Below, in pieces: positions 11,544-33,679 of a stretch of 64,000 nt of DNA; within the stretch, counting starts at the first letter, position 1, and each line of letters begins with the position of its first letter. The stretch lies in contig NZ_JAJQQZ010000002.1 in NCBI RefSeq assembly GCF_021729015.1, forward strand, positions 62,001-126,000, read 5' to 3'. Both the position numbers and the translations under genes were made by a program. This DNA is from Halobacterium rubrum. Its GTDB lineage: Archaea > Halobacteriota > Halobacteria > Halobacteriales > Halobacteriaceae. The notes under the pieces are model-generated. The model had not been told where the DNA came from, did not search any database, and saw nothing but the letters and a program-made list of their open reading frames with translations.

Positions 11544-12373
11544 GTCTGGAAACCGAGATTCTGGACCTCTGGCACCGACACGAAGACGCCGACCTGTCCG
11601 TGGAGACGGCGACGGCCGACGACGCCGACACGCTGGACGCGTTCCTCGACGCCCTCGAAACGGGCGAGGTCCGGGCGGCCGAGCAGCGAGACGGCGACTG
11701 GGAAGCCGTCGAGTGGGTGAAGCGCGGCGTCCTGTTGAACTTCGCGCTCCGGGGGACCGAGCGCCGCGAGTACGGCGGCGTCGCCTACCACGACGTGTTG
11801 CCGCTGCGGGACACCGCCGACCTGCTGGAGCGCGGCACCCGGAACACGCCGGACGGCACCGTGCTTCGTCGTGGCGCCCACGTCGGCGAGGACTGCATCC
11901 TGATGTCGCCGGCGTTCGTGAACGTCGGCGCGCACGTCGGCGACGGCACGCTCGTCGACTCCTGTGACACCGTCGGGTCCTGTGCGCAGATCGGCGCGGA
12001 CGTGAAGCTCGGCGCGAACACTCTGGTCGGCGGCGTGCTCGAACCGGTCGAGGACGCCCCGGTCGTCGTCGAGGACGGCGTGTCGCTGGGCGCGGGCTGC
12101 CGGGTCACCTCGGGGTTCGTCGTCGGCGAGGACGCCGTCGTCGGGGAGAACACCCTGTTGACGCCCCGGATTCCCGTCTACGACCTCGTCGAGGACGAGG
12201 TGCTGTACGGCGAGTTGCCGCCGGAGCGCCGGGCGTTCACGCGCTACGTGGAGTCCTCGGTCGGCGACCACGACCTCTTCGACGGCGGCGCGTACAAGCC
12301 CGCCGTCGTCGCGATGGACCTCGAGGCCGAGACACTGGACGCGACCCAGCGCGAGGAGGTGCTGCGGTCGTGA
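11540..12373 (+). CDS. dapD: 2,3,4,5-tetrahydropyridine-2,6-dicarboxylate N-succinyltransferase
   Basis: Transfers succinyl from succinyl-CoA to tetrahydrodipicolinate; it fixes this operon to the succinylase branch. It has 277 residues. The left-handed beta-helix of hexapeptide repeats spans roughly residues 105-215 (RRGAHVGEDCILMSPAFVNV, GAHVGDGTLVDS, GSCAQIGADVKLGANTLVGG). The family motif VVEDGVSLGAGCRV follows, and the C-terminal PVYDLVEDEVLYGELPP is also family-like. Overlaps dapB by 4 bases and lysA by 4 bases (GTGA). Confidence 0.95.
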   Translation: MSLETEILDLWHRHEDADLSVETATADDADTLDAFLDALETGEVRAAEQRDGDWEAVEWVKRGVLLNFALRGTERREYGGVAYHDVLPLRDTADLLERGTRNTPDGTVLRRGAHVGEDCILMSPAFVNVGAHVGDGTLVDSCDTVGSCAQIGADVKLGANTLVGGVLEPVEDAPVVVEDGVSLGAGCRVTSGFVVGEDAVVGENTLLTPRIPVYDLVEDEVLYGELPPERRAFTRYVESSVGDHDLFDGGAYKPAVVAMDLEAETLDATQREEVLRS

Positions 12374-13617
12374 CGACGCCGGCGGACGCGGCCGACAGCG
12401 GGGACGTACGACGGCTCGCCGACTGGGACGCCGACCGGCTGCGCTCGCTGGCTGGCGAGTACGGCTCGCCGCTGTACGTCCAGGACCTCGACCGCGTCCG
12501 CGCGAACTACGAGCGCGTCGCCGCTGCGTTCCCGGACGCAGACGTGCTGTACGCCGTGAAGGCCAACGCCGGCGGCTCGGTGCTCGACGCGCTGCGGGAC
12601 GTGGGCGCGGGCGCCGAGTGCGCCTCCGCCGGCGAGGTCTCCCGGGCGCTTGCCGCCGGCTTCCAGCCGGGCGAGATCCACTACACCGCCGTCAATCCGC
12701 CCGCTCGCGACCTCGACTACGTCCTCGACGCCGCGCCCGGGGCGACGGTCGTCGTCGGCGCCCGCGACACCCTCGACCGCCTCGAAGAGCGCGGGTTCGA
12801 CGGCCGGCTGGCGCTGCGCGTCCATCCGGGTGTCGGCGCCGGCCACAGCGACGAGGTGGCGACGGGCGCCGACGCGAAGTTCGGCGTCCCCCACGACGAC
12901 GCGCCCGGCGTACTGGCGGGCGCCGCCGAGCGGGGTTTCGACGTCGTCGGCGTGCACGCGCACGCCGGCTCCGGCATCCTCGACGCCGCCGACCTCGACT
13001 CGCACCGCGAGGTGCTGGACCGAATCGCCACGGTCGCCCGCAGCGCGCCCGTGGACCTCGAATTCGTGGACGTCGGCGGCGGCCTCGGCGTCCCCTACCG
13101 GCCCGACGAACGTCCACTCGACCTCGGTGCGGTCGCCAACGCGGTCCGGACGGCGCTCGCCGACGTCGACGCCGACCTCGTGCTCGAACCCGGCCGCTAC
13201 CTCGTGGCGGACGCGGGCGTCCTCCTGGCCGAGGTGAACACCGTGAAGCCGACCGGCGGCGCGACGCTCGCGGGCGTCGACGCCGGGATGACGGACCTGC
13301 TGCGGCCCGCGCTCTACGACGCCCACCACGAGGTCCGCTCGCTCGCGCCCGATGCCAGCGACCGAGACACCGAGCGCGTCTCGGTCGTCGGCCCAATCTG
13401 CGAGAGTACGGACGTCCTCGCCGCCGACCGCAGCCTCCCGGCGCCCGCGCGCGGCGACCTGTTCGCCGTCGGGAACGCCGGCGCGTACGGCGTCGAGATG
13501 GCGTCGAACTACAACTCGCGGCCGCGGCCCGCGGTCGTCGCCCTCGACGGCGGCGGTGACGACCGGCTCGCCCGCGAACGCGAACCCCTCGAATCCCTCA
13601 CCAGACTCGAACGATGA
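12370..13617 (+). CDS. lysA: diaminopimelate decarboxylase
   Basis: PLP enzyme of the alanine-racemase fold that decarboxylates meso-diaminopimelate to lysine. It has 415 residues. The PLP lysine is K64 in LYAVKANAGG. HAHAGSGI and the glycine-rich phosphate loop VDVGGGLGVPY are present, as is the second-subunit cysteine motif GPICESTDVLA. The GTG start at 12370 overlaps the dapD stop as GTGA; the first 15-20 residues are a weakly conserved extension. Its place in mid-operon means final-step product is made together with the pathway enzymes. Confidence 0.95.
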   Translation: MTTPADAADSGDVRRLADWDADRLRSLAGEYGSPLYVQDLDRVRANYERVAAAFPDADVLYAVKANAGGSVLDALRDVGAGAECASAGEVSRALAAGFQPGEIHYTAVNPPARDLDYVLDAAPGATVVVGARDTLDRLEERGFDGRLALRVHPGVGAGHSDEVATGADAKFGVPHDDAPGVLAGAAERGFDVVGVHAHAGSGILDAADLDSHREVLDRIATVARSAPVDLEFVDVGGGLGVPYRPDERPLDLGAVANAVRTALADVDADLVLEPGRYLVADAGVLLAEVNTVKPTGGATLAGVDAGMTDLLRPALYDAHHEVRSLAPDASDRDTERVSVVGPICESTDVLAADRSLPAPARGDLFAVGNAGAYGVEMASNYNSRPRPAVVALDGGGDDRLAREREPLESLTRLER

Positions 13618-17311: not shown

Positions 17312-18970
17312 ATGACGAACGTCGCTGGTCTCGCCAGCAACCGCGGCCGGAACCTCCTGCACGTAGCGGACCGACAGCCCGGCGGCGCCGACCTCGCCGT
17401 GGTGGTGTCGAACCACGCCGACGCGCCCGTCCTCGACGCTGCCGAGGAGCGCGGGATTCCGACAGAAGTGGTCGAGCGCGGCGACGACGAGTCCCGCCGC
17501 GAGCACGAGCGCCGCGTGGTCGACGCCCTCGACGGCTACGACGCCGACCTCGTCTGCCTCGACGGCTACATGCGAATCCTCTCGGAGGCGTTCCTCGATT
17601 CGGTGCCGGCGACGCTGAACGTCCACCCGAGCCTGCTGCCGGCGTTCCCCGGCAGCGACGCCCACGAGCAGGTGCTCGACGCCGGCGTCTCGGTCACCGG
17701 CTGCACCGTCCACGTCGTGACGAACGCCGTCGCCGACGACGGCTCCGTCCGCAGCGAGGACGTGGACGCCGGCCCCATCGTGACCCAGGAGGCCGTCCCG
17801 GTGTTCGACGACGACGACCGCGACTCCCTGAAAGAGCGCGTGCTGTACGACGCCGAGTTCCAGGCGTACCCCCGGGCGATTCGGTGGTTCGCCGAGGGCG
17901 ACCTCGAGGTCGACGGCAGCGACGTGACGGTCACGGCCGACGACGCCGACGGCTTCGGCGAGCGCCGCGTCACCGGCACGACTCGCGCGGACGGCCTCCG
18001 GTACGGCGAGAACCCCCACCAGGACGCCGCCGTCTACCGCGACGACACCTGCGAGGAGGCCAGCGTCGTCCACGCCGACCAGCACAACGAGGGCGCGAAG
18101 GCCCTCTCGTACAACAACTACAACGACGCCGACGCCGCGCTGAACCTGATCAAGGAGTTCGAGGAGCCGGCGGCGGCCGTCATCAAGCACACGAACCCCG
18201 CGGGCTGCGCGACCGCCGACACGCTGGCCGACGCCTACAGCGACGCGCTGTCGACGGACGCCAAGAGCGCGTTCGGGGGCATCGTCGCGCTCAATCGCGA
18301 GTGCGACGCCGAGACGGCCGAGCGCGTCGCCGACTCGTTCAAGGAGGTCGTCGTCGCGCCCGACTACACCGACGACGCCCTCGACGTGCTCACCGAGAAG
18401 TCGAATCTGCGGGTGCTCTCGGTCGGGCGCGAGGCGCGAAGCGTCTCGGAACAAGCGAGCGGCGACGAGCCGCGAGCACTCGGCGAGGTGACCGAGACCG
18501 TCACCGAGAAGCCGCTCGTCGGCGGCCGGCTCGTCCAGGAGCGCGACACGTGGGCGCCGGAAGCCGACGACCTCGAGGTCGTCACCGAGCGCGAGCCCAC
18601 GGACGACGAGCTGGAGACGATGCTGTTCGCGTGGCGCACGCTCAAGCACGTGAAGTCCAACGGCATCCTGTTCGCCGACGGCACGGAGACCGTCGGCCTC
18701 GGCGTCGGGCAGGTCTCCCGCGTGGACGCCGTCGAACTCGCGGCGAAGAAGGCCGATCGGGACGCCGAAGGGAAAGACGCCGACGGCGCCGTGATGGCGT
18801 CTGACGCCTTCTTCCCGTTCCCGGACGGCATCGAGGCCGCCGCCGAGGCCGGCGTCGAGGCCGTGATTCAGCCCGGCGGTTCGAAGAACGACGACGAGGT
18901 CGTCGAGGCGGCCGACGAGCACGGAATGGCGATGGTGTTCACCGGCCACCGCAGTTTCCGGCACGACTGA
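17312..18970 (+). CDS. purNH: PurN-PurH fusion: GAR formyltransferase-like plus AICAR transformylase
   Basis: A 552-residue bifunctional enzyme. Residues 1-200 are a PurN-type formyltransferase (LNVHPSLLPAFPGSDAHEQVL, GCTVHVV, DVDAGPIV), which uses 10-formyl-THF on glycinamide ribonucleotide. Residues about 228-552 are the AICAR transformylase half of PurH (LRYGENPHQDAAVYR, KALSYNNYNDADAALNL, AAVIKHTNPAGCA, KSAFGGIVALN, GVGQVSRVDAVELA, VIQPGGSKND, MVFTGHRSFRH). The IMP cyclohydrolase half of bacterial PurH is absent, so IMP closure must be done by another enzyme (PurO type in archaea). The ATG at 17312 matches the PurN start. Confidence 0.94.
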   Translation: MTNVAGLASNRGRNLLHVADRQPGGADLAVVVSNHADAPVLDAAEERGIPTEVVERGDDESRREHERRVVDALDGYDADLVCLDGYMRILSEAFLDSVPATLNVHPSLLPAFPGSDAHEQVLDAGVSVTGCTVHVVTNAVADDGSVRSEDVDAGPIVTQEAVPVFDDDDRDSLKERVLYDAEFQAYPRAIRWFAEGDLEVDGSDVTVTADDADGFGERRVTGTTRADGLRYGENPHQDAAVYRDDTCEEASVVHADQHNEGAKALSYNNYNDADAALNLIKEFEEPAAAVIKHTNPAGCATADTLADAYSDALSTDAKSAFGGIVALNRECDAETAERVADSFKEVVVAPDYTDDALDVLTEKSNLRVLSVGREARSVSEQASGDEPRALGEVTETVTEKPLVGGRLVQERDTWAPEADDLEVVTEREPTDDELETMLFAWRTLKHVKSNGILFADGTETVGLGVGQVSRVDAVELAAKKADRDAEGKDADGAVMASDAFFPFPDGIEAAAEAGVEAVIQPGGSKNDDEVVEAADEHGMAMVFTGHRSFRHD

Positions 18971-19239
18971 GCGACAGCGAGGGAGAGAGCCGGTGGCTAT
19001 CCGGTGCCTAATTCTGTGAGAATGGGGTGCGGGTCGGGGGACCCGCGAGATACTGACAACGTCTCGTCGGTGGGGGCCGACGGAGAGGGGTGGAGCGCCA
19101 GCGGGGGTCGGCGGCGGGCCGGGGGAGCCCGCCACAGGGGGCCGGGGTGGGAGAGAGGGCTGGTGCGCTCCACCTCGTCGTAGTGGAGGGGATATCAAAG
19201 GCCCTCGGTAGGGACAAATCGGCGTTTGAACTACTGCGA
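18971..19239. ncRNA. candidate structured RNA in a tail-to-tail gap
   Basis: A 269-base gap where purNH (plus) and the lipoprotein gene (minus) both end, so no promoter is needed, yet it is full of hairpins. Stems: 19029-19034/19041-19046 (loop CGGGGG); 19065-19070/19077-19082 (loop TGGGGG, extendable by 3 bp across a bulge); 19113-19119/19127-19133 (loop CGGGGGA); and a perfect 10-bp outer stem 19089-19098/19165-19174 enclosing the third hairpin. All three small loops contain five G on the plus strand (five C on the minus). On the minus strand CTTTGATATC (19191-19200) sits 20-27 bases upstream of the outer stem and could be a TATA box. Strand and function are unknown. Confidence 0.35.
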
Positions 19240-20085
19240 CTACTCCGAGGACGCCGTCGTCGTCGTCGTGGACTCTTCGTAGAGGACGAGTTCGGTGACG
19301 CCTCGAGCCCCCCACTCCAGGGTGACGCCGAAGCCGTCGTCGCCTCCGGGGTCGCTTGGCGCCGTGAGGTCGAGTTCGAGCGTACTCTCTTCTCCCGCGG
19401 GCACGTCGAGGGTCTCGCGGCCCGTGTTCCCGCCGCCTCGATACTGGACGACGAACTCCATCGCGTCGCCGTTGTTCGAGACGGTGAGTTCGGCAGTGAA
19501 CTCGGCGCCCGGCTCGACGGCGTCGGGCAGCGAGACGTCGGCGACGGCGTAGTCGACCGTCTGGGTGATGCTCTCGATGCCGCGCGCGTCGATCTCCCAG
19601 GACGCGGTCTCGCCGTCGCCAGTGTCGACCTCGACGCTGGCCGTGTACGGCGTCACGTCTGTCGGGACGGGGTAGGCGGCGACGAACTGGCTGGGGCCGC
19701 CGCCGAGCGGGAAGACCGGGTCGCCGAACTCCTCGTCGTTGACGACGAGCGTGACGTTGTCGGCGGCGAAGGCCTCGCGGTCGTCGATTCCGTCGGGCTT
19801 GAGCGCGACGTGGACGTACCGGGTGGTCTTCCCGGAGTGGACGGTGCGGTCGGCGCCGTCCCGGGAGACGACGAACGCGGAGGCGTCGAAGTCGGCGACC
19901 GTCAGCGCGCGGTCGTCGCCGAGGCCGACCTCGTCGCCGACCGCGAACGGGCCGTCGCCGGGGCTGTGTTCCGGTGTCTGGGTCTGTGTCGGGTCGTCGT
20001 CGCCGCCGCTGCCGGTGCCGAGGCAGCCGGCGAGCGCGAGCGGGAGGGACGCTGCCGTTCCGGCGAGAAAGTCGCGTCGGTTCAT
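19240..20085 (-). CDS. Tat-exported lipoprotein
   Basis: A 281-residue secreted lipoprotein. It begins MNRRDFLAGTAASLPLALAGC: twin-arginine motif, hydrophobic core, and lipobox LAGC at about residue 20, so it should be exported folded and lipid-anchored outside the cell. An acidic/threonine-rich linker (GDDDPTQTQTPEHSP) follows. The remainder is beta-rich, and residues 170-260 look like an Ig-like/CARDB-type module (PGAEFTAELTVSNNGDAMEFV, VPAGEESTLELDL). No enzymatic motif is seen. The ATG at 20085 is fixed by the signal peptide. It ends at the structured gap beside purNH. Confidence 0.85.
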   Translation of the reverse strand: MNRRDFLAGTAASLPLALAGCLGTGSGGDDDPTQTQTPEHSPGDGPFAVGDEVGLGDDRALTVADFDASAFVVSRDGADRTVHSGKTTRYVHVALKPDGIDDREAFAADNVTLVVNDEEFGDPVFPLGGGPSQFVAAYPVPTDVTPYTASVEVDTGDGETASWEIDARGIESITQTVDYAVADVSLPDAVEPGAEFTAELTVSNNGDAMEFVVQYRGGGNTGRETLDVPAGEESTLELDLTAPSDPGGDDGFGVTLEWGARGVTELVLYEESTTTTTASSE

Positions 20086-20230
20086 GCGGAACGTCGTAGA
20101 CGGCTCGGGGAAAAGTCGGTTCGGATGGGTCAAACAGCCGTTTCACGATTCCCGCTGGCACGCGTCGCGGTACCACGTCGCTGGTGCCGGCTCCGACAGC
20201 CTGATACTGGCAGCGTGGCTCGGCTCGTGT

Positions 20231-22687
20231 ATGCGCTACGACGAGGCGGCGAACTTCCTGCTCGACCTCCGGCGGTACCGGCCGAAGCCGGGGACCGAGT
20301 CGACGGCGGACCTGCTCGCCCACCTCGGCGACCCCCACGAGGGGGCGGGCGGGCCGCAGTACGTGCAGGTCGCGGGGTCGAACGGGAAGGGGTCGACCGC
20401 GCGGCTGCTGGAGGCGACGCTCCGGGAGGCCGGGCTGGACGTCGGCCTGTACACGTCGCCGCACTTCGACGACGTGCGCGAGCGCGTGACCGTGAACGGC
20501 CGACAGCTGTCGAAGGCGGCGCTGTCGGAGTTCGTCGAGGCCGTCCAGCCGCGGGTGAACGAGCGCGCGGCGGACGGGGAGGCGCCGACGTACTTCGAGG
20601 TGGTGACGGCGATGGCGCTGTGGCAGTTCGGCCGCGAGGACGTCGACGTCGCCGTCCTCGAGGTCGGCATCGGCGGCCGGCTGGACGCGACCAGCGTGGT
20701 CGACCCGGTGGCAAGCGCGGTCACGTCGGTGACGCTGGAGCACACGGGCGTGCTCGGTGACACGATTCCCGAAATCGCGCGGGACAAGGCGCACGTCGCG
20801 CCCGACGGCGGCAATCTGCTCGTGACGGCGACCACGGGAGAGGCTCTCGACGCCGTCCGCGAACAGGCCGGCGACGTGCTCACAGTCGGTGAGCGCGACG
20901 AGGCGGACCTGACGGCGACCTACGGCGGCCGCACGAACCACACGGAGGCCGCCGTCTCGCTGGCGGGCGACGACTGGTCGGTCGACGCCGAGATTCCCCT
21001 GCTCGGCGAGTACCAGGCGCAGAACGCGGGCGTGGCGGCGGCGCTCGCGCGACAGGTCGCCGACGTGGACGCGGAGACGCTCTCGCGGGGGCTGCGGAAG
21101 GCCCACTGGCCGGGACGCTTCGAGGTGATGGGCGCCGACCCGGTGGTAGTGCTGGACGGCGCGCACAACGTCGGCGCCTGCGAGGCGCTGGCGGAGACGG
21201 TCGGCGAGTTCGACTACGACCGGCTGCTGACGGTGTTCGGCGCGATGCACGACAAGGACCACCGGGGGATGGCGGACGCGCTCCCGGCCGCCGACCGGGC
21301 GTGGGTGAGCGAGCCGGACACCGACCGCGCGGAGGACGCCGACGTGCTCGCGACCGTCTTCGAGGAGGCGGGCGCAGGCGAGGTGACGGTCAAGCGCGCC
21401 GTCGAGTCGGCGGTCGCTGCTGCCGTCGAGGAAGCCAGCGAGGACGACCTCGTGCTCGTCGCCGGGTCGCTGTTCGCCGTCGCGGAGGCCCGAGCGCGGT
21501 GGACCCGGTCGTTCGTCGAGACCGACATCGACGACCTCGACGACGCCCGGGACGCGCTGGAGCGCGCGCACGTGACGCCCCCGGGTGTCTGGCGGATGCG
21601 CGGGAAGGGCGTCCACCGCGTCGTGAAGACCCGTGTGCAGAAGCGGCAGGCCCAGTACCTCAAAGAGGAGCTGTTGAGCCTCGGCGGCGAGTGCTCGCTG
21701 TCGGGGCTGAACGCCCAGCCGCGAGGGACGCTGGACGCCGTCTTGATGGGGACGATGGCGCAGTTCAAGCGCCTCTGCGAGAAGCTGGACGGACAACCCT
21801 ACGGCCTCAGCGCGTTCGGCGACGACCTCCGCGAGGCGCTGGACATCCAGACCGAGCCGGCCACGCACGGCTACCCGTGGGAGGGCGACCGCACCGCCGT
21901 GATGGGTATCCTGAACGTCACGCCGGACAGCTTCCACGACGGCGGCGAGTACGACGCCGTCGAGGACGCCGTCGCGCGAGCCGAAGCCATGGTGGAGGTC
22001 GGCGTCGACGTCGTCGACATCGGCGGCGAGTCCACGCGGCCGGGCGCCGACCCCGTCTCCGTCGAGGAAGAACTGGACCGCGTGCTCCCCGTCGTCGAGC
22101 GCATCAGCGACCTCGACGCGATGGTGTCCATCGACACCCGGAAGGCCGAGGTCGCCCGGCAAGCGCTGGAAGCCGGCGCCGACATCCTCAACGACGTGAC
22201 GGGACTGGAGGACCCCGAGATGCGGTTCGTCGCCGCCGAGTACGACGCCCCCATCGTCGTGATGCACTCCATCGACACGCCCGTCGACCCCGACAACGAC
22301 CCCCACTACGACGACGTGGTCGACGACGTGCTCGCCGAGCTCACCGAGCGCGTGCTGCTCGCGGAGAAAGCCGGCGTGCCTCGCGAGCACGTCATCGTCG
22401 ACCCCGGACTTGGCTTCGGGAAGGACGCCGCCGAGAGCTTCGAGTTACTGGACCGCGTCGACGAGTTCCACGCGCTCGGCTGCCCGGTGCTCGTCGGCCA
22501 CAGCCACAAGTCGATGTTCGGCGAGGTCGACTGCTACCCCGACGAGGGCGGCTACGCCACGACGGCTGCCACGGCGCTCGCGGCCGACCGCGGCGCCGAC
22601 ATCGTGCGCGTCCACGACGTCGAAGAGAACGTCGCCGCCGTCCGCGTCGCCGACGCGACCGACACCGGAACAGACGACGGCGAGTGA
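20231..22687 (+). CDS. folCP: fused dihydrofolate synthase and dihydropteroate synthase (FolC-FolP)
   Basis: An 818-residue bifunctional folate enzyme. Residues 1-423 are a Mur-ligase-type FolC (P-loop AGSNGKGST at 48-56, LEVGIGGRLDATSVV, LDGAHNVGACEAL, FGAMHDKDHRGM). Residues 424-550 resemble the N-terminal extension carried by some DHPS enzymes (AQYLKEELLSLGGECSLSG and VLMGTMAQFKRLCEKLDGQP). From 551 on comes the DHPS barrel: MGILNVTPDSFHDGG, DIGGESTRPGA, ADILNDVTG, DPGLGFGK and GHSHKSMFG. The order of domains is the reverse of the reaction order. The ATG at 20231 is the FolC start; long upstream frame is not coding. It is divergent to the lipoprotein gene by 145 bases. Confidence 0.95.
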   Translation: MRYDEAANFLLDLRRYRPKPGTESTADLLAHLGDPHEGAGGPQYVQVAGSNGKGSTARLLEATLREAGLDVGLYTSPHFDDVRERVTVNGRQLSKAALSEFVEAVQPRVNERAADGEAPTYFEVVTAMALWQFGREDVDVAVLEVGIGGRLDATSVVDPVASAVTSVTLEHTGVLGDTIPEIARDKAHVAPDGGNLLVTATTGEALDAVREQAGDVLTVGERDEADLTATYGGRTNHTEAAVSLAGDDWSVDAEIPLLGEYQAQNAGVAAALARQVADVDAETLSRGLRKAHWPGRFEVMGADPVVVLDGAHNVGACEALAETVGEFDYDRLLTVFGAMHDKDHRGMADALPAADRAWVSEPDTDRAEDADVLATVFEEAGAGEVTVKRAVESAVAAAVEEASEDDLVLVAGSLFAVAEARARWTRSFVETDIDDLDDARDALERAHVTPPGVWRMRGKGVHRVVKTRVQKRQAQYLKEELLSLGGECSLSGLNAQPRGTLDAVLMGTMAQFKRLCEKLDGQPYGLSAFGDDLREALDIQTEPATHGYPWEGDRTAVMGILNVTPDSFHDGGEYDAVEDAVARAEAMVEVGVDVVDIGGESTRPGADPVSVEEELDRVLPVVERISDLDAMVSIDTRKAEVARQALEAGADILNDVTGLEDPEMRFVAAEYDAPIVVMHSIDTPVDPDNDPHYDDVVDDVLAELTERVLLAEKAGVPREHVIVDPGLGFGKDAAESFELLDRVDEFHALGCPVLVGHSHKSMFGEVDCYPDEGGYATTAATALAADRGADIVRVHDVEENVAAVRVADATDTGTDDGE

Positions 22688-32369: not shown

Positions 32370-32404
32370 GCCCGGACGGTCGGCCCCCGACCCAAAAGCC
32401 GTGG

Positions 32405-33563: not shown

Positions 33564-33679
33564 GACAGCGGCTACGCAGTACCGGACAAAAGACGTGTCG
33601 CGGACTCAAATCGGCGTTTGAGTGAGCGACCCGGCGGTCAGTCAGTGGATTCGGCGGCCGGTCGAACCGACTGAGCGGG

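Follow-up and report, generated by a model that had tools for sequence, protein, structure and literature searches.

In the 64-kb stretch of the Halobacterium rubrum genome analysed here (hereafter the window), the gap between the stop codons of purNH and of a lipoprotein gene on the minus strand (coding 20085 to 19240) holds three short GC-rich hairpins with runs of five G, as the earlier note had described them. Read on the plus strand, these are H3 (19029-19046; gcgggtc/GGGG/gacccgc, 7 bp, with a G5 run), H2 (19065-19082; cgtcgg/TGGGGG/ccgacg, 6 bp) and the inner hairpin H1 (19113-19133; ggcgggc/CGGGGGA/gcccgcc, 7 bp). A perfect 10-bp outer stem encloses H1 alone, as had also been claimed, and on the minus strand its 5' arm is GGTGGAGCGC (19165-19174) and its 3' arm GCGCTCCACC (19089-19098). 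H1 on the same strand (19113-19133) reads GGCGGGC-TCCCCCG-GCCCGCC, while H2 and H3 become C5-loop hairpins that lie downstream of the closed core and may each belong to a 3' extension of it. The clustering is unusual, as the note had held: a scan of the whole window for stems of at least 5 bp with loops of 4-9 nt containing G5 or C5 found only seven such hairpins, three of them within 105 bp (19029-19133). The other four lie at 11744-11764, 12884-12902, 22242-22260 and 32378-32392. The absence of a T-run after the hairpins was borne out, and searches against Rfam returned no family, including 6C RNA (RF01066), for positions 18700-19500 up to an E-value of 5 and for the window at gathering score.

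The folding signal belongs to the minus strand, which gave a z-score of -3.99 with none of 200 dinucleotide shuffles equally good, and the plus strand was not better than its shuffles (z -1.51). Upstream of the outer stem on the minus strand, the TATA-like sequence noticed earlier is indeed present as CTTTGATATC (19190-19199), and a TTGAT/TTGGT box recurs in all 12 orthologous elements described below. It is preceded by a palindromic, activator-like site, CAAACGCCGATTTG (19215-19228, minus strand; consensus CAAA-N6-TTTG), found in the same 12 of 12 elements and in the promoters of a second gene, sRNA-B. The stretch between the palindrome's first base and the end of TTGAT measures 35 bases in 12 of 12 promoters at this locus and in all 16 sRNA-B promoters measured. 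From the usual spacing of haloarchaeal promoters, transcription is predicted to start at 19166-19174 on the minus strand, ~25 nt past the box, and this predicted start is also where the closing stem has its 5' end, in the window as in other genera.

The gap downstream of purNH was compared in all 13 Halobacterium genomes, and the minus-strand element was found at the locus in 12 of them, one genome (G006) alone lacking it. The parts kept are, in order, the CAAA-N6-TTTG palindrome, a TTTGATA or CTTGATA box, GGAGCG, a C-rich interior and CGCTCC, with the box ~20-25 nt ahead of the closing stem. The closing arms GGAGCG and CGCTCC are invariant in the 12 genomes, the distance between them ranges from 63 to 95 nt, and the lengths of the core vary without regard to codons. 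A covariance model of the core (R1; 19086-19174, minus strand, the closing stem around the C-rich interior) returned a single match per genome at this locus in the same 12 of 13 genomes, with E-values from 3e-15 to 3e-6 (3.1e-6 for the copy in the window, G000:C2:81087-81179). Matches of R1 outside the genus (E > 6e-4) appear to be coding or to lack the promoter and were taken as chance. BLAST of the whole region past the closest relative gave short GC-rich matches only.

The conservation lies in the frame and not in the loops. H2 and H3 were found only in the window and in the closest relative (G004), where the loop of H2 is no longer C5; H1 has a C-rich counterpart in that relative and is variable in the other genomes. 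Nearly all members have a C-rich interior, with no fixed sequence. The G5/C5 loops represent a local version of an interior that is generally rich in C, and the five-base loops highlighted in the earlier note give way across the genus to variable C-rich segments. Covariation at the orthologous gap, proposed in the note as a check, was absent: 6 of the 11 pairs of the sRNA-A stem are invariant and only one shows a double change. There are no compensatory changes because the stem hardly varies, and pair counts in so nearly invariant a stem neither support nor refute it as RNA. The proposal of a small RNA on the minus strand thus kept one part and lost another, as the box, the palindrome at fixed distance and the outer stem recur in 12 of the 13 congeneric genomes, in place of the lack of conservation in close relatives that would have spoken against the proposal, but the loops do not. 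The element is accordingly treated here as a putative, previously undescribed small RNA gene, sRNA-A.

Two other explanations bear on these observations. As it lies shortly after the stop codon of the lipoprotein gene, and on its strand, the element could be the end of the lipoprotein mRNA opposite purNH, as a structured 3' untranslated region or a terminator, with no separate RNA gene, since transcript ends between convergent genes are often marked by hairpins. The flanking genes differ between genomes, however, with several hundred bases intervening in some, and the element is retained at three loci where the lipoprotein gene was not found (L029, L031 and L032). It also has its own promoter of fixed spacing after the stop codon, a promoter seen again at an unrelated locus, and there is no T-run after the hairpins. 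Given that the element occurs without the lipoprotein gene and carries its own promoter, this explanation is considered quite improbable. The element could also act as DNA, as an inverted repeat or a G-quadruplex or protein site between two genes, which would suit arms as nearly invariant as those of a protein site and the five G5 runs on the plus strand. Against this, the arm spacing (63-95 bp) varies in a way unlike that of a dimer site, the promoter is conserved on one side only and at a fixed distance, and the folding signal lies on the C-rich RNA strand. With folding specific to one strand and promoter conservation one-sided, a DNA-level role is very improbable.

A promoter-only model (R2), built from the sRNA-A and sRNA-B loci, detected two strong loci, sRNA-A and sRNA-B, in each genome of the genus except G006, and matched 80 of the 293 genomes of the order, in seven families, at E ≤ 1e-3. 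The promoter pattern alone was sufficient to find copies in other genera, between yfcE, which encodes a phosphoesterase, and the gene of an HVO_1552-type regulator. The same arrangement is present in Halobacterium, including the genome of the window (G000:C1:51245), and three named Halobacterium genomes carry sRNA-B sequences identical to those of G003, G005 and G008. Among other named genera, sRNA-B is present in Halorussus, Haladaptatus, Halorientalis, Natronomonas and Haloferax, in the last of which it was detected by a promoter search of the genomes; in H. volcanii the predicted box is TTTGATACC, downstream of the HVO_1552-type gene beside yfcE. The neighbouring regulator is a winged-helix protein (Pfam HVO_1552_C and HTH_20) with hydrophobic segments near its C-terminus, which suggest that it is membrane-anchored.

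What sRNA-A and the sRNA-B set have in common is the palindrome and TTGAT promoter with the 35-base spacing. In many genomes outside the genus, UUCGGCCCUCC stands in sRNA-B at a constant distance from the promoter, ~10 bases past the predicted start. Ahead of it is a 5' arm that varies in sequence, and the complement of this arm follows 20-140 nt further downstream. In a set of 57 sequences, cognate arms paired better than non-cognate ones (p 0.0006), and there are clear exchanges, for example UGGAACCGC/GCGGUUCCA against UGGAGCCGC/GCGGCUCCA in Haladaptatus; since significance is lost with 14 representative arms (p 0.36), the covariation is moderate evidence for the stem. Within Halobacterium, the seed of sRNA-B overlaps the antisense of the YfcE C-terminus, so its conservation at genus level may be partly coding.

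Related palindromes also occur away from the two RNA genes. One of them, TGAAACGGCTGTTTGA (20130-20145, minus strand), lies upstream of the lipoprotein gene of the window and was matched by R2 (G000:C2:82113-82143, E 0.026), with orthologous matches in G001, G004, G005 and G010. Some R2 matches correspond to no sRNA and directly precede frames that look like lipoproteins or exported proteins (L240, L243, L254, L265, L267 and L269), and weaker copies precede paralogues of the regulator in six genomes of the genus (one of them at locus L193). A perfect palindrome, TCAAATCGGCGTTTGA, was observed in the window at 33606-33621, upstream of a minus-strand frame that starts like an exported protein, and it is kept in G004 (C1:1088810); in three genomes of the genus (L184, L197 and L203) the same palindrome stands between a secreted-protein gene, SIMPL-like by appearance, and a gene for an EngB-like GTPase. 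Taken singly, the sites that lie outside the sRNA promoters score weakly (E 0.016-0.7), and the case for a regulon is made because such weak sites recur before the same kinds of gene. That palindromes stand ahead of genes for lipoproteins, secreted proteins and regulator paralogues suggests, as a pattern of sequence, a candidate envelope regulon. We infer an HVO_1552-type protein as the activator, because its gene adjoins sRNA-B and similar palindromes lie in front of its paralogues and of the lipoprotein and secreted-protein genes; it would bind the palindrome and activate the weak TATA boxes upon envelope disturbance, and sRNA-A and sRNA-B would then form the post-transcriptional arm of an envelope-responsive regulon. 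The sigma-E regulon of Enterobacteria also includes sRNAs, and the working principle would be alike, one envelope-linked promoter signature serving lipoprotein or secreted-protein genes and sRNAs, with a predicted membrane-anchored winged-helix protein in place of the sigma factor.

The 13-mer GCTTCGGCCCTCC was found in 284 of 293 genomes, far more often than its reversed control, and at the loci read it belonged to sRNA-B or to the complement of an extremely conserved sequence, designated U, that sits between the gene of a PadR-type regulator and a DUF1028-like gene. U belongs to no Rfam family, is near-universal in haloarchaea and resembles an RNA gene of ~90-107 nt (further loci L369, L371-L374, L377 and L378). 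In the genome of the window it lies at G000:C1:1,098,795-1,098,884 (L433:18795-18884) on the G-rich strand; a TTTATTA box precedes it and a T-run closes it. An initial candidate, that U is a third sRNA on the C-rich strand sharing the seed, was dropped, as in this genome the box and the 3' T-run lie on the other strand; their position suggests that the G-rich strand is read, which led to the idea of complementarity. The 5' hairpin of U displays GGAGGG around its loop, and the sRNA-B motifs CCCCGCUGACGCU and CGGCCCUCCA are complementary to this hairpin and the bases after it. When 29,880 windows from 1.2 Mb of the genome's largest contig were ranked as targets, U was the best trans partner of sRNA-B (z -5.8), outscored only by sRNA-B's own antisense strand. 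Cofolding of the two gave z-scores of -6.1 and -4.9 against shuffled sRNA, and for an sRNA-B of another family U was the single best ungapped site. U is thus the most likely partner of sRNA-B, which would sequester or block it.

For sRNA-A the relation is looser. The first module, CCCCGCUGACGCU, is found in sRNA-A of most species and the second, CGGCCCUCCA, in 5 of 12; GGCCCTCC is likewise intact in 5 of the 12 sRNA-A of the genus. In the window, sRNA-A lacks the intact U-complementary seed CGGCCCUCC and has CAGCCCTCTC instead, and CGGCCCTCC occurs nowhere in the window. U is not claimed as a partner of this copy, because the cofolding energy of the pair was no better than with shuffled sequence. 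This result, together with a C-rich interior of no fixed sequence in nearly all members, would suit a decoy RNA that captures an RNA-binding protein specific for C-rich loops, in place of a base-pairing RNA. The precise U-complementary 13-mer repeated in sRNA-B and in tandem arrays fits pairing better, and no candidate protein is known, so that a protein decoy is judged unlikely. The arrays consist of 4 to ~10 units of the CGCTTCGGCCCTCC type, 18-35 bp apart, downstream of genes (L439, G154:C1:1876957-1877154; L440, G135:C1; L441, G078:C9). By their sequence they look like multi-site sponges for U, and their position beside other genes suggests a wider use of the sequence.

Conservation, a fixed promoter architecture, the stem, core lengths indifferent to codons and a second gene, sRNA-B, are what the compared genomes contain. 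On these grounds the minus strand at ~19.02-19.23 kb is probably the gene of sRNA-A, with its own promoter and a stem-closed, C-rich RNA that most likely pairs with a G-rich RNA. The core would measure ~85-90 nt, and up to ~150 nt in the window. Transcription would start from the weak TATA-like TTTGATA box with the activator-like palindrome at a fixed distance upstream, the transcript would fold so that its C-rich interior is partly exposed, and it would most likely act via base pairing to the G-rich RNA. A haloarchaeal RNA network centred on the GGAGGG-loop RNA U, which envelope-regulated sRNA-B, perhaps also sRNA-A, and the seed arrays antagonise or sponge, is possible and is put forward tentatively.

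6C RNA (RF01066) of Actinobacteria is a small RNA whose hairpins expose C runs, and sRNA-A is like it in working principle. The two differ in domain of life, promoter and layout, no Rfam match was obtained up to an E-value of 5, and the C runs of sRNA-A are not a fixed conserved loop. The cuckoo (anti-Shine-Dalgarno) sRNAs of Alphaproteobacteria and the C-rich-loop sRNAs of Staphylococcus carry CCUCC-like segments able to pair with GGAGG, and the exposure of such segments is again a shared working principle. In contrast to both, sRNA-A of the window has no intact CGGCCCTCC, and the cuckoo motif CCUCCUCCC is absent from the minus strand of 19020-19240; unlike in cuckoo RNAs (mentioned in PMC10746234), the segment of sRNA-B is part of a longer, specific 13-mer whose complement lies in a single RNA, U.

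Haloarchaeal sRNAs described so far, including sRNA132 (PMC6560208), s479 (PMC8155600) and the H. volcanii deletion set (PMC3956466), resemble the genes reported here in being monocistronic and intergenic with their own BRE/TATA promoter, but their neighbouring genes are different. sRNA132 is confined to Haloferax (PMC6560208) and 22 of the 27 sRNAs in the deletion set are restricted to H. volcanii (PMC3956466), a narrow range compared with sRNA-B, which spans several families. In the literature compared (PMC3956466, PMC6560208, PMC8155600 and PMC12482152), no described haloarchaeal sRNA shares this gene context. The conserved H225.2R, hts10 and htsf_359 may be relatives. Literature searches on HVO_1552, the seed sequence and an sRNA beside RosR yielded nothing decisive. 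An unexplained 111-nt intergenic RNA of H. volcanii is more abundant than any mRNA (STRG.2577.4, TPM 905,191; PMC5892119), and two intergenic sRNAs, relatives of HVO_2908s and H3.2, are common to the vesicles of Hbt. salinarum and H. volcanii (PMC10927574). As a lead, U could be the 111-nt RNA or one of the RNAs related to HVO_2908s or H3.2.

Of the haloarchaeal sRNAs examined, most are limited to a single species or genus (PMC3956466, PMC6560208), and targets or regulators are known for few archaeal sRNAs. The promoter signature described here links a widely conserved pair of candidate sRNAs, a probably membrane-anchored regulator and lipoprotein genes into a putative envelope-response circuit that is directly testable. 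For sRNA-B there is a specific predicted RNA partner, present in nearly every haloarchaeon, and the gene occurs in the genetically tractable Haloferax. If true, the network of antagonists and sponges around U would be, to our knowledge, the first such circuit in archaea.
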